Both the position numbers and the translations under genes were made by a program. A DNA stretch of 64,000 nucleotides from Myxococcota bacterium (GTDB lineage Bacteria > Myxococcota_A > UBA796 > UBA9615 > JAKLKC01). Under the pieces are notes generated by a model. The model saw nothing but the letters and a program-made list of their open reading frames with translations, had not been told where the DNA came from and searched no databases. Numbering within the stretch: the stretch's first letter is position 1; every line of letters begins with the position of its first letter. Location of the stretch: positions 34,927 through 98,926 of the forward strand of contig JAKLKC010000022.1 in the NCBI GenBank assembly GCA_023150875.1. Direction: 5' to 3'. Positions 16,989 to 39,092 of this stretch are shown piece by piece.

Positions 16989-18800
16989 ACCTGTCCTCGG
17001 CGTTCGGCGCGTGCCAGGGGGACGGCGCCTGCGTCTCGGGGCTGGAGTCCGGCCGCCCTTGGTTCGATGCCGCCACCTCGGCGGCGGCGGTGTCGTTGTC
17101 CGTGCGTGCCGCCGCCGACGCCTCCAACGTCTCCGCCATCGAGTCCTGGCTCTCGGGCCTCTCCTGGGCCGGGACGCCGCGCGTCCAGGTGGTGCAGGCC
17201 CCCACCCTCACCCGGGTGGTGGCGAGCGGCCCGCTCTCCGCGTCCACCCTTGGGGGCTTGCCGCAGGAGGCGTTCCTCTCCGGCAAGGAGTGGCACACCC
17301 GCCCCCTGCGGGACGAGGAGCGGACGGACTCCTGGCTGCGGCTGGACGTGGTGGGGGCGTCCGTGGGGGTGGAGCGGTGCGGCGGTCCCCCGCCCTGCGA
17401 GGACGGGAGCGATCTGCCGGTCCCCGCGGTCCTGGATGCCAGCGGGCGCGTCCTCGTCCGCGTGGCGCCCCGCACCGGTGGGTCCACGGCCCTGGACGCC
17501 TTCGTCGCGGCGGGCTGGAGCGAGCTGGGCTCCCTCGCCGACGCCTCCGGCACCGTTCACGTCGTCGGGTGGGCGGACGCCGTGGCCCTCCTGGAGCTCG
17601 GCCGCGGCCACGCCGTCCCCGGCGGCCTGACGGTCACGCTCGGTGTCGCGGAGGACCTCGCCTCCCTTGGGCTGGGCTCCGGCCCGGACGACCTGTCGTT
17701 CCTCATGGACGGTCCCGTGGCCTTCTGGGGCAGCGCCACCCTCCTGGAGATGATCGGGGCCGAGCGCCAGTGCGCCGAGGATCCGGGTTGCCTCTCCTAC
17801 TACCAGGGTCGGGTGGCCTTCGACCCGGTGACCGGCGCTCCGCAGCTCCGGCTCGCCCTCCCCGCCGGAGAGGACGCGGGGATCGTGGACGCCTGGGCCA
17901 CCCGCCATCCGGACCGGGTACGGATCCTGGAGCGCTGGGTCCTGGCGGACGCGCTCACCTTCATCGAGTGGACGGTGTCCGTGGCGGGGGAGGACGACGG
18001 CGGCGTATGGATGGAGCTGCTGTCGGACCTGTCCACGGGCCTCTCCGCCGCCACCGACGTCGGGATCACGCCGGAGCCGCTCCGTGCGCCGGGCCTGCAC
18101 GGGGACGTGATCGGCCTGCTGGATCCGGTGGTCGCGTGTGCCGGCGACCCGGCCTGCATCGAGCCCCTGGCGGAGGGGCGGGCGTGGTTCGACGCCACGG
18201 ACATGACGGCCGCGCTGGAGCTGGCGGTGGCCGCGGATCCGTCGGGCGCGGACGCCGCCGCCGTCGCGCAGGAGGTGGCGGCCCTGGGCTGGACCGGCGG
18301 AGCCACCCTTCGGACGGTGGACACACCGCTTGGGGTGCGGGTCGAGGCGCTCGGGCGCCTGCCCCTGTCGGCCCTCGAGTCCCTCGGCCAGGAGCCGGCG
18401 CTGTCGGGCCGCCCCTGGTCGACCCGGCCCCAGCGGGACGAGGAGGTCACCGGCGCGCGCCTCTCCATCGCGGCGCTGGTCACGGCGGACCAGGTCCGCG
18501 CCTGCCTGGACGAGCCGGCGTGCGTCCCCGGACAGGACTACCCCCTCCCCGCGGTCGTGGAACCCGACGGCCGGATCCTGGCGCGCCTGGAGCCCGCCTC
18601 GGGGAGCGCCCAGGCCCTCCTCGACTACGCCACGCCGGGATGGACCGCCCTCGGGGACGAGAGCACGTCCACGGACCTGGTGGTGGTGGGATGGGTGACC
18701 TGGGACGGGGTGGCGCACTTCGGCAAGGGAGTCCCGGTGACCGACGACGTGGTCCCCGCGGGCCTGGACCTGTTGCTGGCCCACCTCGACGACCTGCCGG
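16596..18800 (+). repeat. Two tandem ~1.1-kb coding repeats in the giant gene
   Basis: Unit 1 covers about 16596-17715, unit 2 about 17719-18800. Matching landmarks in order: VELWGS / VAFWGS; PVNGAPGVRIDL / PVTGAPQLRLAL; TPEP..PGLHPDLL / TPEPLRAPGLHGDVI; GRPWFDAATSAAAVSLSV / GRAWFDATDMTAALELAV; TRPLRDEE / TRPQRDEE; LPVPAVLDASGRVLVR / YPLPAVVEPDGRILAR. Unit 1 is only continuous if the frame changes near 16950-16985. Confidence 0.75.
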
Positions 18801-35033: not shown

Positions 35034-35065
35034 TTGACAGGGCGACAGGGGGGGGGGGGCATCGT
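35034..35065 (+). promoter_or_regulatory. Candidate promoter with a 12-G tract in the spacer
   Basis: A consensus -35 TTGACA at 35034-35039 is followed by GGGCGACA and a run of twelve G at 35048-35059, then CATCGT at 35060-35065 as a weak -10. Spacing is 20 bp as sequenced and would be 17 with nine G. It drives the small-protein island that starts at 35147. Slippage in the G run would change spacing and so expression. Confidence 0.4.
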
Positions 35066-35146
35066 CCCGAACGAGTCTGGTCGGCACACCGTCGGTTCGA
35101 GATGCGGCCGGCGCAAGGTGGAGCCGCCGGCAGACGGAGGTACGTC

Positions 35147-35497
35147 ATGGGATGCGGGGAGTTCAAGCAGTTCCGGATCGGACCCACCAAGCTGTCTGTA
35201 GGCGCTGACGTCTACTTCGACACCATCCAGTCCATTGATCTGGCCGGCACTCGGGAGGCTTGCGTCACGCTTACGGTGCTGAGCGACAACGGTGGTACGT
35301 TCACCGCCTTTCAGCTCGTGAGCGGACCGGAAAACGACACAGCGTTCTTCGACGACGTCCCGAGTGGTGCGCCCAGCACGCTCGTGGAAGGGCCTCACCA
35401 GATCTACATTTCGCAGTACTCCCGCTTCCTGAACTTCAAGTACTCGGCGTCGAGCGCGGGGCCGACCGTGGTCATCGACGTCGTCCCGAAGTGCTGA
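35147..35497 (+). CDS. Small protein A of the 35-kb island, paralogue of the protein at 35976
   Basis: 116 residues; ATG with GGAGG six bases upstream. There is no signal peptide or membrane segment, so it is probably cytoplasmic or exported by a non-Sec route. The sequence is beta-rich. It shares RIGPTKL, LTVL, YI.Q.SR.LNF and DVVPK with the protein at 35976 in the same order, so the two arose by duplication. I do not recognise the family. Base composition is visibly poorer in GC than the rest of the window. Confidence 0.75.
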   Translation: MGCGEFKQFRIGPTKLSVGADVYFDTIQSIDLAGTREACVTLTVLSDNGGTFTAFQLVSGPENDTAFFDDVPSGAPSTLVEGPHQIYISQYSRFLNFKYSASSAGPTVVIDVVPKC

Positions 35498-35552
35498 GTG
35501 CCGACCGTCGCGGACGCCGCGTCGGATCGGCGTCCGGATTGGGGGAGAGCGC

Positions 35553-35894
35553 ATGGCCAGCAAGACGTACCGGATCGAGTCCCACTGGGTGGCGGTGGGT
35601 CCGGGGATCACGGTGACTCATGGAGACGCGGACCTGGCGACCCAGGGCTACATCGCCTCCTACGGATCGGGGGAACGCCTCCTGATCTACTTCATGGAGG
35701 ATCCTGGGCCCTCACCTCCTCACACGTATGACGAAGAAACCGGAGTCGCGGCGATCTTCGTCCCTTTGACGGCGATGCCGTCATATTTGGGCATCCTGGT
35801 CCGCGGGGAGGTGTACGCCTACGTCAATAGCGATAGTCCCCAATGGAACTGCATCAAGACGAGTCCAGGGGAGATGGCGGCGGAGAAGACGTAG
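35553..35894 (+). CDS. Small hypothetical protein B of the island
   Basis: 113 residues, ATG with GGGGGAG at good spacing. No signal peptide or membrane helix. The sequence is beta-rich with several aromatics (YGSGERLLIYF, YLGILVRGEVYAYV). It lies between the two paralogues A and C, 55 bp after A and 81 bp before C, same strand. It does not align clearly with them but has similar size and character. Function unknown. Confidence 0.7.
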   Translation: MASKTYRIESHWVAVGPGITVTHGDADLATQGYIASYGSGERLLIYFMEDPGPSPPHTYDEETGVAAIFVPLTAMPSYLGILVRGEVYAYVNSDSPQWNCIKTSPGEMAAEKT

Positions 35895-35975
35895 CCGCGG
35901 CTGTCGATGCGGTACGGACCGATGTGGCCAGGGGCGGCGGCGAGGTTCCCTTCCGAATGCGGGTGGAGGTGAGGG

Positions 35976-36353
35976 ATGAGCGGTGAGAAGAAGGTCTTGC
36001 GAATCGGCCCCACGAAGTTGACGAGCACGACGGCCAACACGAAGTTCGATCTGTTGCAGACGATGGATCTTCTGGGCTATCGGGAATTCAGTGCCCTGCT
36101 CACGGTACTGGGCAGTTCGGGCACGTCCCAGACTCTGGACCTGGCCCTGATCCACGGTGCGGTGAACAACGAGGACCTCATGGTCGCGTTCCCCACGGGC
36201 GGGAGCTTCACCCAGGTGACCGCGGCCGCGTCCCTGCCCACCGTCAGGCAGCTCTACATCGTGCAGTTCTCGCGATATCTCAACTTCCAGTATACGCTCG
36301 GCGGAACGAACCCCACGTTTACGATCCAGTTTGACGTGGTGCCGAAGGTTTGA
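35976..36353 (+). CDS. Small protein C of the island, paralogue of the protein at 35147
   Basis: 125 residues, ATG directly preceded by GGAGGTGAGGG. It matches protein A over nearly its full length: RIGPTKL near residue 9, LLTVLGSSG, VQFSRYLNFQYTLGGTNPTF and a closing DVVPK. The middle is longer by several residues than in A. No signal peptide. The conserved ends with a variable middle would suit a structural or binding beta-sandwich; this is inference. Family not recognised. Confidence 0.75.
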   Translation: MSGEKKVLRIGPTKLTSTTANTKFDLLQTMDLLGYREFSALLTVLGSSGTSQTLDLALIHGAVNNEDLMVAFPTGGSFTQVTAAASLPTVRQLYIVQFSRYLNFQYTLGGTNPTFTIQFDVVPKV

Positions 36354-36379
36354 TGACTTTCATCTGGTGATTGTGGTCG

Positions 36380-36409
36380 GTCACCCAGGGCCGAGGGATG
36401 CCGGGTGAC
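36380..36409 (+). other. Inverted repeat in the gap between C and D
   Basis: GTCACCC (36380-36386) and GGGTGAC (36403-36409) pair perfectly around a 16-base loop. No T-run follows, so it is not a standard terminator; it may attenuate or separate D and E from the upstream genes, or bind a regulator. Confidence 0.3.
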
Positions 36410-36474
36410 TGAACGGCAGTCATCGTCTCGGTGAACACACGTCGCGGCGTTCGGGGCCGCGTGGGAGGCGAGCG

Positions 36475-36846
36475 ATGGGAGTTCCTGCACTCGGAGGACG
36501 CGGTGGGAAGCCAGCGCTAGGTGGTACTGGGCATGTGCCTCCCCTGGGGGGCATCGCCAGCACGCCTGGTGCGTCGAACGTCATGGATCCCGGCAACCCC
36601 GCCGATACTCTCCCACGCAATCAAGGGCTCATCACGTGGGACTGTCGCCATGATCGCTATGAGCTTGGCGCCGATGGGAAGTACCATTCCATCCAGGCGT
36701 GCACTCTGTGGTGGAACTCTCTCTTCCTGACCGTCCCAATCGGAGAAGCGGAACGAGACGGCGGAGTCGTCTCGGGGACGCACTGTGGCCTCATCACACC
36801 CGATGAACGAGAGACCGACCAGCCGCCGCTCTCGAGGCGGTTCTAG
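36475..36846 (+). CDS. Small Gly/Pro-rich N-terminus protein D of the island
   Basis: 123 residues, ATG with GGAGG seven bases upstream. The first 35 residues are Gly/Pro-rich and near-repetitive (VPALGGRGGKPALGGTG, HVPPLGG); the rest has two Cys-containing stretches (WDCRHDRYE, ACTLWWNS) and ends basic. No signal peptide. No family recognised. Sits 29 bp upstream of the membrane protein gene and probably co-transcribed with it. Confidence 0.6.
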   Translation: MGVPALGGRGGKPALGGTGHVPPLGGIASTPGASNVMDPGNPADTLPRNQGLITWDCRHDRYELGADGKYHSIQACTLWWNSLFLTVPIGEAERDGGVVSGTHCGLITPDERETDQPPLSRRF

Positions 36847-36875
36847 TCTCAAGTGGACTTGGGGGACGGCGGAAA

Positions 36876-37595
36876 ATGCCTGACGTGCGGATATCGGAAG
36901 TCGGGCTCGGCTCGGCGAACGGGCTGTCAGAGCGGTGGGCTTCGAGATCGCGGTTCCTAGCGAGGTGGGTGGCGGCGGCTATTGCCGCAGACGCGCTGGG
37001 ATCATCCCTCGTCTACTCCCTCCTCGTTGCGATCCCTTCCGCGTCCGGCATCGACTACACGGAGTCCCTGGCTGCGATTGCGGTTGCAGTCCTGGGGCTC
37101 GCGGTGCTCCGCAGTCTACTTCTGGGATGGGGGCAGGCGCTGGTGCTTCGTACTCTCGCTCCGTCCTTGCGCCTGAAGGACTGGATTCTGCCGACGATGT
37201 TCGCGGGCGTTGCGGCGCAGGCCACCGCAGTCCTCGGGGGAGGTGGGGTCCCCACTCTGGGCATTGCCCACTCGGCTGGGCAGGATGGGGTGGCCGTCTG
37301 GATGGCCAGCGGCCTTGCAATGGGTGCGGTTCAGTGGCTCGCTCTCAGACATGTCGTCGGTCGAGCCGCGTGGTGGATCCCTGTGTGGTCCGTCGCCATG
37401 CCGCTCTCCATCATCGTGTCGAAGTGGATCCTGTCCCGGACTTTCCGGATCGCCGATGCGGACCACTTTCGGCCCGACGGACCGCTGTTCTGGTCTGTCG
37501 CGATCAGCGTCATCCTGACGGCATCGATTCAAGCCGCCATCACCGGAACCGGCCTGATCGCACTGTCCCGCCGGCCCCGATCACGGCGAACGTAA
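36876..37595 (+). CDS. Hypothetical six-helix membrane protein E of the island
   Basis: 239 residues with about six hydrophobic helices and short loops. The repeated GWGQALVLR and GAVQWLALRHVVGRAAWWI resemble a family of uncharacterised membrane proteins with a Q(W)LxLR motif in cyanobacteria and Chloroflexi, from memory. GGGGA lies at ribosome-binding distance from the ATG. It is the last gene of the island; composition is still lower in GC than the flanks. Function unknown. Confidence 0.65.
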   Translation: MPDVRISEVGLGSANGLSERWASRSRFLARWVAAAIAADALGSSLVYSLLVAIPSASGIDYTESLAAIAVAVLGLAVLRSLLLGWGQALVLRTLAPSLRLKDWILPTMFAGVAAQATAVLGGGGVPTLGIAHSAGQDGVAVWMASGLAMGAVQWLALRHVVGRAAWWIPVWSVAMPLSIIVSKWILSRTFRIADADHFRPDGPLFWSVAISVILTASIQAAITGTGLIALSRRPRSRRT

Positions 37596-37818: not shown

Positions 37819-38277
37819 ATGTCGGACAAGCGGCCACCGCCGGAGGGGCGATCCGGGGACCTCCTCAGGATCCTGTTGATCGACGACCAGGAGGAGCTCC
37901 GCGAGATCCTCCGCCAGACCCTGGCCTCCCGGGGCTACGGGGTGGACTCGGTCGCCTCGGGCACCGAGGGCATCGAGAGGCTGCGCCGGGGAGGGATCGG
38001 GATCGTGCTGGCGGACCTGGGCCTGCCGGACGCCTCGGGGTGGGAGGTGGCGGCCACCGCCAAGGCCCTGTGCGCGAGCACCGCGGTGGTGCTGATGACG
38101 ATCTGGTCGGGAGAGGTGGACCCCCGCTCCCTGCGGGCCCACGGGGTGGACCTGATGCTGCCCAAGCCCTTCCGGAGCGAGGAGCTGCTCCGGGCGATGG
38201 AGAGGGTGGCGACGCCTCGCCCGCACCCCGGGCCTCCAATCGCCGCGGGGGGCCTGGCGACGCCGGATCTGCTGTAG
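37819..38277 (+). CDS. Single-domain response regulator
   Basis: 152 residues from ATG 37819 (GGGGGAG upstream); the longer in-frame reading from 37645 is not protein-like. A complete receiver domain: acidic pair D22 D23, phosphoacceptor D66 in LADLGLP, T94 and K116 in PKPF. No output domain follows, only a short Pro-rich tail, so it acts as a stand-alone receiver or phosphorelay/chemotaxis-type protein. No cognate kinase gene is adjacent. Confidence 0.9.
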   Translation: MSDKRPPPEGRSGDLLRILLIDDQEELREILRQTLASRGYGVDSVASGTEGIERLRRGGIGIVLADLGLPDASGWEVAATAKALCASTAVVLMTIWSGEVDPRSLRAHGVDLMLPKPFRSEELLRAMERVATPRPHPGPPIAAGGLATPDLL

Positions 38278-38315
38278 CGGTTCGGCGCCCCGCGTCGGGG
38301 TGAGGAGGGTTCGAA

Positions 38316-39092
38316 ATGGACGGCACGGGATCCGGCGGGCGGCCCACGCGGCGCGGCGCCCTGGTGGGGGTGGCGGCGGCGCTGGGGTGGGCCTGGGGCG
38401 GCGCGGCGATGGCCCAGGGGGAGCCGGGCCGGGTGGCGGCGGCGCGGCGCCGGCGGGAAGAGGCGGTGCGGGCCCTGTTCACCGCGCGATCCCTGCCCTA
38501 CCCCCCGGCGGGGATCTTCGTGCGGATCTTCAAGCACGAGGGGGTGGTGGAGCTGTGGGGCCGGAAGGCCGGCGTCGCCGAGCACGTCCTGGTCAAGACC
38601 TTCCCCGTCTGCGCCCCCTCGGGGACCCTCGGGCCCAAGCGGCGGCAGGGGGATCTCCAGGTGCCCGAGGGCTTCTACTCGGTGAGCGTGCTCAACCCCT
38701 GGAGCTCCTACCACCTCTCCCTGGGCCTCGACTACCCCAACGCCTCGGACCGGGTCCTCTCGGATCGGAAGCACCCCGGGGGGGACATCTTCATCCACGG
38801 CGACTGCGTCACCATCGGCTGCGTCCCCCTGGGCGACGACGGGATCGAGGAGCTCTACCTGGCGGTGCTGGACGCGCGGGCGGCGGGCCAGCGGAAGGTC
38901 CCGGTGCACCTCTTCCCCACCCGCTTCGACGCCGCCGGCCTCCGGGCGATGCGCGCCGTCGCCGCCGAGGGCGATCCCCTGTGGCGCTTCTGGGCCGATC
39001 TCCGGGTGGGCCACGACGCCTTCGAGTCCACCCGCAGGGTGCCGAGGGTCACGGTGTCGCCGGAGGGGCGGTACGGGGTGACTCCGGGGTGA
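38316..39092 (+). CDS. L,D-transpeptidase (YkuD/YafK-like)
   Basis: 258 residues with an N-terminal PTRRGALVGVAAALGWAWGG segment, a Tat-like or Sec signal. The catalytic motif IHGDCVTIGCVPL near residue 160 carries the YkuD His and Cys. The layout (EGFYSVSVLNPWSSYHLSLG, LDYPNASDR) matches YafK/ErfK relatives, which form or cleave peptidoglycan 3-3 cross-links or attach proteins to peptidoglycan. It starts 38 bp after the response regulator and may be co-transcribed with it. Confidence 0.88.
   Translation: MDGTGSGGRPTRRGALVGVAAALGWAWGGAAMAQGEPGRVAAARRRREEAVRALFTARSLPYPPAGIFVRIFKHEGVVELWGRKAGVAEHVLVKTFPVCAPSGTLGPKRRQGDLQVPEGFYSVSVLNPWSSYHLSLGLDYPNASDRVLSDRKHPGGDIFIHGDCVTIGCVPLGDDGIEELYLAVLDARAAGQRKVPVHLFPTRFDAAGLRAMRAVAAEGDPLWRFWADLRVGHDAFESTRRVPRVTVSPEGRYGVTPG

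Follow-up and report, generated by a model that had tools for sequence, protein, structure and literature searches.

VgrG2b, an HExxH metallopeptidase effector of the type VI secretion system of Pseudomonas aeruginosa, which the excerpted text of its published description pairs with a periplasmic immunity protein (PMC6899460), is one of the closest described counterparts of the gene order considered here. Other points of comparison are Bbp16, the cement protein of Bordetella phage BPP-1 (PF21190; PDB 3j4u), the TNF-like lectins PLTL and BC2L-C N-domain (PDB 9ib7 and 2wq4) and the extracellular contractile injection systems (eCIS). Here, we analyzed an island of five small open reading frames (ORFs), A to E, in a 64,000-nucleotide stretch of a Myxococcota genome (the window). 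In relatives of A and C, a jelly-roll gene followed by a hydrolase gene and then a lipoprotein gene is a well-supported arrangement. We tentatively suggest that the island was acquired horizontally and is a divergent version of such a set of genes, a carrier-payload-immunity cassette in which the role of the jelly rolls would be to carry or load an antibacterial enzyme destined for export.

The cassettes resemble VgrG2b in that a small gene follows that of an HExxH enzyme, its product being a periplasmic immunity protein in the case of VgrG2b and a predicted lipoprotein in the cassettes. However, in the same excerpted description VgrG2b belongs to the thermolysin-like gluzincins and is joined to a spike, whereas most cassette zincins carry the signature HExGHxxxGxxHC and accompany a separate jelly-roll gene; the two were compared by description. 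The likeness to Bbp16 lies in the predicted jelly-roll fold of C. In contrast to Bbp16, A and C gave no direct match to PF21190, the link being one between profiles; no capsid gene was seen beside A and C in PHROG searches of A to E and Pfam searches of three flanking genes; and the close relatives of A and C are paired with hydrolases. A literature search, covering titles and abstract openings of open-licence PMC articles, found no description of the cassette.

A predicted jelly-roll family that includes A and C

Structure prediction gave a jelly-roll fold for C, and A is its paralogue, 45% identical by alignment; as the initial annotation had noted, RIGPTKL, SR.LNF.Y and a DVVPK end are common to both. 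The predicted fold of C aligned best to phage cement proteins, and the viral models matched included many unnamed tailed-phage proteins; absence of a family from this VIA-align list does not exclude that family. Comparison of the A/C profile with the Pfam Bbp16 family by hhalign gave 97%, the Bbp16 rows themselves having been collected with an A/C profile.

A 22-row family profile, whose query alignment also held three proteins of genomes G039 and G048, found 39 places in 18 of the 71 genomes of the window's class, a count that is circular for a place on contig C25 of the window's own genome, since that protein was a member of the query alignment. Two of the 39 places were A and C themselves, ten lay in a conserved gene cluster resembling a mobile element, and 27 remained, including locus L050. 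The A/C profile matched two groups of these 27 by hhalign at 97% (seven sequences) and 95% (five sequences) and showed no confident kinship to the jelly rolls of the mobile-element-like cluster (9%, six sequences). Moreover, C was retrieved by an independent jelly-roll profile (E = 1.3e-9) and was recovered at 2.4e-7 in a scan of 282 genomes of the phylum, which used jelly rolls other than A and C, scored up to 16 candidates per genome and added new loci.

Both B and C have relatives in other places with which they share 71-75% identity. Three close relatives of A and C and one B homologue were each found on a metagenome contig of 2113 bases, probably one and the same, and the recurrence of A/C-type genes in tandem that had been anticipated from the window was seen there and in G197, which has three in succession. 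A match in G067 was dropped; it lay inside a 259-residue lipoprotein ORF of alpha/beta hydrolase-like appearance, and the family profile does not find it. Two further matches of the phylum scan (L090 and L091) were short fragments with no visible cassette. The CAMAWH01 record (L066 and L067), titled as a Klebsiella pneumoniae metagenome-assembled genome, has the matches found in G039, which belongs to the window's class, and is probably mislabelled.

Hydrolase genes downstream of the jelly rolls

We surveyed the genes downstream of 27 jelly rolls, comprising 26 of the 27 remaining places (L050 being left out) and L048:12437-12763, a jelly roll beside a hydrolase. A predicted gene lay on the same strand within 2.2 kb downstream of 21 of the 27, and a hydrolase motif was present in 17 of these 21 downstream proteins (HExxH in 13 and S[VI]SK in 4). 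Among proteins of at least 200 residues from the same fetched loci, which supplied the background for both the motif and the lipoprotein counts, HExxH was found in 8 of 241 and S[VI]SK in 1 of 241 (Fisher test, 8e-17). The misses were L011, L013, L059 and L071, the last two with less than 1 kb to the contig end. Six-frame reading of the six loci without a predicted downstream gene revealed a 641-residue SxSK ORF in L053 and an HExxH ORF in L060 with its likely start 8 bases past the jelly-roll stop; no convincing downstream hydrolase was seen by this reading in L054, L055, L075 or L082. At L050, a zincin lies 78 bases downstream of the jelly roll. Altogether, a recognised hydrolase stood behind 20 of 28 cassette-type jelly rolls.

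All five SxSK proteins matched the Pfam Beta-lactamase family. In contrast, none of eleven HExxH proteins scanned against Pfam rose above the cut-off of any family, and a PDB sequence search with one zincin returned two weak unrelated matches. One zincin profile took in 10 of the 13 HExxH proteins (E <= 1e-8), of which six had served to build it, and those of L052, L056 and L077 fell outside it. Most cassette zincins carry the signature HExGHxxxGxxHC and, with no Pfam match where scanned, could be a new peptidase family. The type of hydrolase changes behind one jelly-roll family, from zincin to beta-lactamase-fold to M23 enzymes, and at L048 in G068 two cassettes with different hydrolases stand in tandem.

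By a simple rule, a lipobox was found in 0 of the 21 downstream proteins, and their N-terminal hydropathy peaked no higher than 1.8 except in L013, where it reached 2.8; judged in this way, the downstream hydrolases appear to have no evident signal peptide. Several zincins, at L050:3844, L060:9231 (minus strand), L077:531 and L048:12766, begin with a short leader rich in Cys (MACxC or CGCG). A also begins MGCG, and the leader of the zincins and A is possibly a common loading or anchoring tag.

Lipoprotein genes and the converse test

Where a gene on the same strand lay within 1 kb after the hydrolase gene (15 cases), it was a predicted lipoprotein gene in 11, compared with 54 of 436 genes overall (Fisher test, 4e-8); a 1011-residue protein on C25, not a recognised hydrolase, is left out of this count. 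Five of the 11 lipoprotein genes begin before the hydrolase gene ends, the overlap being 4 to 16 bases.

The zincin profile A13 found 52 places in 16 of the 71 genomes at E <= 1e-6, and the converse test covered 30 of them. A same-strand jelly roll lay upstream of the zincin in 21 of the 30 loci (E <= 2e-17), 13 of which were new and 8 already known; in a reversed-sequence control, the best E value was 0.37. At least 400 bases of upstream room were available in 22 of the 30 loci, and 20 of these 22 had a jelly roll. The zinc motif was readable in 11 of the 13 new loci as HE-x-(G/A)-H, G and HC, often followed by CxF or CCFE. The phylum scan showed the order jelly roll, HExxH enzyme, lipoprotein-like gene again in G028, and a jelly roll with a zincin was present on contig C161 of G051 (L089). 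Outside the class, the three consecutive jelly rolls of G197, one of them fused to a longer part, lie in a low-GC island that also holds the genes for a 164-residue protein and for one of 865 residues in which an M23 peptidase domain was recognised (1.8e-10), as well as a small lipoprotein-like gene. Assignment of the 164-residue protein (L087:8589-9083) as a DcrB/DUF1795-type chaperone was unsupported by Pfam and PDB.

The island in the window

The five plus-strand ORFs (Table 1) were found at the positions and with the lengths first assigned to them, each with a purine-rich stretch just 5' of its start that is in keeping with the ribosome binding sites described at the outset. Mean GC content is 0.739 across the window but 0.638 in the island (35034-37595, 2562 bases); just 0.18% of segments of this size fall to that level, which places the island nearly at the bottom of the window in GC. 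GC content at the third codon position (GC3) was 0.81 in A, 0.79 in B, 0.84 in C, 0.66 in D and 0.75 in E, compared with a mean of 0.953 and a minimum of 0.903 in the 39 other predicted window genes of at least 100 residues. Sliding-window and codon-usage checks therefore agree with the difference from the flanks proposed in the initial annotation, whose count of 34 G or C among the 60 bases from 36001 was exact. The low GC and GC3 relative to the rest of the window make the island foreign in composition, and it was likely acquired horizontally. No insertion mark was seen: direct repeats around the island and RNA families at it were not found, and the sole tRNA of the window is at 18136, not close to the island. 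Sigma-70-type promoters were also not found there.

Table 1. Coordinates and properties of the ORFs of the island
Feature	Position	Strand	Description
Gene A	35147-35497	+	116 aa; paralogue of C in the jelly-roll family; a Cys close to each end (MGCG... / ...DVVPKC)
Gene B	35553-35894	+	113 aa; new family, three members found; alpha/beta model of low confidence
Gene C	35976-36353	+	125 aa; predicted jelly roll; its best-aligning structure is a phage capsid cement protein
ORF D	36475-36846	+	123 aa; Gly/Pro-rich N-terminus; doubtful gene
Gene E	36876-37595	+	239 aa; polytopic membrane protein by sequence; last gene of island

Gene calls were made with a simple frame-statistics script written for this analysis, which left out D and E. 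A, B and C have a clear codon-position structure, and D has a poor codon-position contrast; the weakest gene call of the five, D may not be a gene. The view that none of the five belongs to a recognised family was upheld: PHROG searches of A to E gave zero matches, Pfam searches gave a few that were all far under cut-off (none for A and C at E <= 1), and NCBIfam searches of B, C and E gave one match, that of E, at 19.9 bits against a cut-off of 300. E is a membrane protein, as predicted, with five hydrophobic segments in a plain hydropathy scan rather than six helices.

In 92 other genomes, neither D nor E had a relative. The proposed link of A and C to E, according to which their homologues should always lie near E, therefore fails, and the recurring neighbours of the family elsewhere are a hydrolase and a lipoprotein, not E. 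Thus, of the undescribed accessory module that had been suggested, the structural or binding pair stands, in the form of the predicted jelly roll C and its paralogue A, and the link to the membrane partner is not supported.

Two homologues of B were found. One is on C25 of the window's genome, and the 2113-base contig probably carries the other; the structure model of B (predicted local distance difference test score of 65) was too poor for a structure search. On C25, the B homologue is followed by a 131-residue protein and then by the 1011-residue protein, which has no family match and gave none in a PDB sequence search. Just 3' of the island, at 37819-39092, are a response-regulator gene and an L,D-transpeptidase (YkuD) gene of normal high GC.

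Proposed function of the cassette

An enzyme without a signal peptide followed by a lipoprotein can be likened to effector/immunity pairs, and a jelly roll that comes first and stays constant while the enzyme changes fits an adaptor or carrier. A fuller form of our proposal, possible but doubtful, is that a jelly roll of phage capsid cement came to serve, in bacteria, as the carrier in a modular, Sec-independent weapon system with an interchangeable hydrolase and lipoprotein immunity, of which the window would hold a version with doubled jelly rolls, B and an unrecognised payload. The hydrolase would leave the cell without Sec via a particle or injection machine, the jelly roll would be its adaptor, and the lipoprotein would shield the producer cell; in the window copy, D would take the payload slot and E the partner slot. 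If this were true, a virus-shell fold would have been reused as a delivery adaptor, and an unnamed gene set in one bacterial class would gain a testable role. The gene order also offers a route to new enzymes and immunity proteins, by inspection of what lies downstream of a jelly roll.

A contractile machine is a possible delivery route. The likeness to eCIS is that sheath-family genes are present in 68 of the 71 genomes of the class, the window's own among them, and that a family member of G026 (L075) adjoins a contractile-type cluster. However, the island is on a contig other than that of the sheath cluster of its own genome. Sheath genes occur in phages too, and were also present in the controls Escherichia coli and Bacillus subtilis. 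The sheath cluster of the window's genome (L085, G000 C180, approximately 135-147 kb) contains a sheath protein by Pfam and proteins that look tube-like and baseplate-like.

Several observations weigh against the cassette reading of the island. By its predicted jelly rolls, the window locus, laid out as jelly roll A, B, jelly roll C, D and E, is a divergent member of the family. However, no enzyme with HExxH or S[VIL]SK was found near or among A to E, and the island has no lipoprotein gene, E being a polytopic membrane protein; since these features failed, the locus is not filed as a complete cassette. With no relatives of D and E in the 92 other genomes, the roles given to them are guesses. 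Among the relatives, a recognised hydrolase is missing behind 8 of the 28 cassette-type jelly rolls, including the 131-residue C25 protein, which, being part of its own query (A3) and missed by independent jelly-roll profiles, is a jelly-roll candidate only. L098 has no jelly roll upstream of its zincin and L111 has a weak match of 29 residues, both despite sufficient room. For C, Foldseek alone placed the cement protein third, with an Eph receptor domain at the top of the list, all at E values of about 2e-4. Signal peptides and lipoproteins were judged by simple hydropathy and lipobox rules rather than by a dedicated predictor, export of the cassette members is a proposal, and the near-universality of contractile systems in the class makes co-occurrence with them uninformative.

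Alternative explanations

The absence of a hydrolase, the weak coding statistics of D and the jelly roll of G039 (L013), which is followed by a lipoprotein-like gene with no hydrolase between, would each fit a decayed or incomplete cassette that has kept its jelly-roll genes but no longer has a hydrolase, D being a remnant or no gene. We consider this unlikely. The codon-position structure of A, B and C and the existence of 71-75% identical relatives of B and C argue for selection on A-B-C.

It is similarly improbable that A, B and C are capsid decoration proteins left behind in the chromosome by a phage or a phage-like mobile element, with D and E as unrelated passengers. The cement-protein fold predicted for C, the profile link to Bbp16 and the foreign composition of the island are consistent with such an origin, as are the distant relatives in the mobile-element-like cluster and the cassette at L050 that adjoins genes of this kind. 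However, no phage family was matched in A to E, two pattern-based scans of IMG/VR gave no relative, and tblastn against 50,697 phage records gave one 28% match for C at an E value of 0.5 and none for a relative in G039; a phage origin of the close A/C family was rejected on the results of these scans and of tblastn. In addition, the jelly rolls of the mobile-element-like cluster are not confidently akin to A and C, and the close relatives partner hydrolases.

Another reading of little probability is that the jelly rolls bind target-cell sugars as lectins or adhesins of TNF-like type, with the hydrolases co-secreted as lectin-enzyme pairs. The likeness of PLTL and the BC2L-C N-domain to C is one of fold only, and these two lectins were absent from the PDB sequence-search matches of C and of the cassette jelly-roll profile.

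A mobile-element-like gene cluster with distant jelly rolls

The ten places in the mobile-element-like cluster are L058, L062, L063, L072, L073, L074, L076, L078, L079 and L080, from genomes G058 (four contigs), G068, G051, G060 and G023. The cluster contains membrane-type and beta-rich proteins together with the distant jelly roll. The L078 members that were scanned had no Pfam match above cut-off and weak PHROG matches (0.003 for the jelly roll against a family of major tail proteins), and tblastn of one cluster member against the phage records gave no match. A SNF2-helicase/N6-methylase protein is encoded near L072, as assigned by Pfam, and a similar-looking one near L078. The cluster has the look of a mobile element or virus not yet described. 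At L050:1116-5355 (G023 C125), a jelly-roll/zincin cassette adjoins genes of the cluster, which suggests that the element may carry cassettes.
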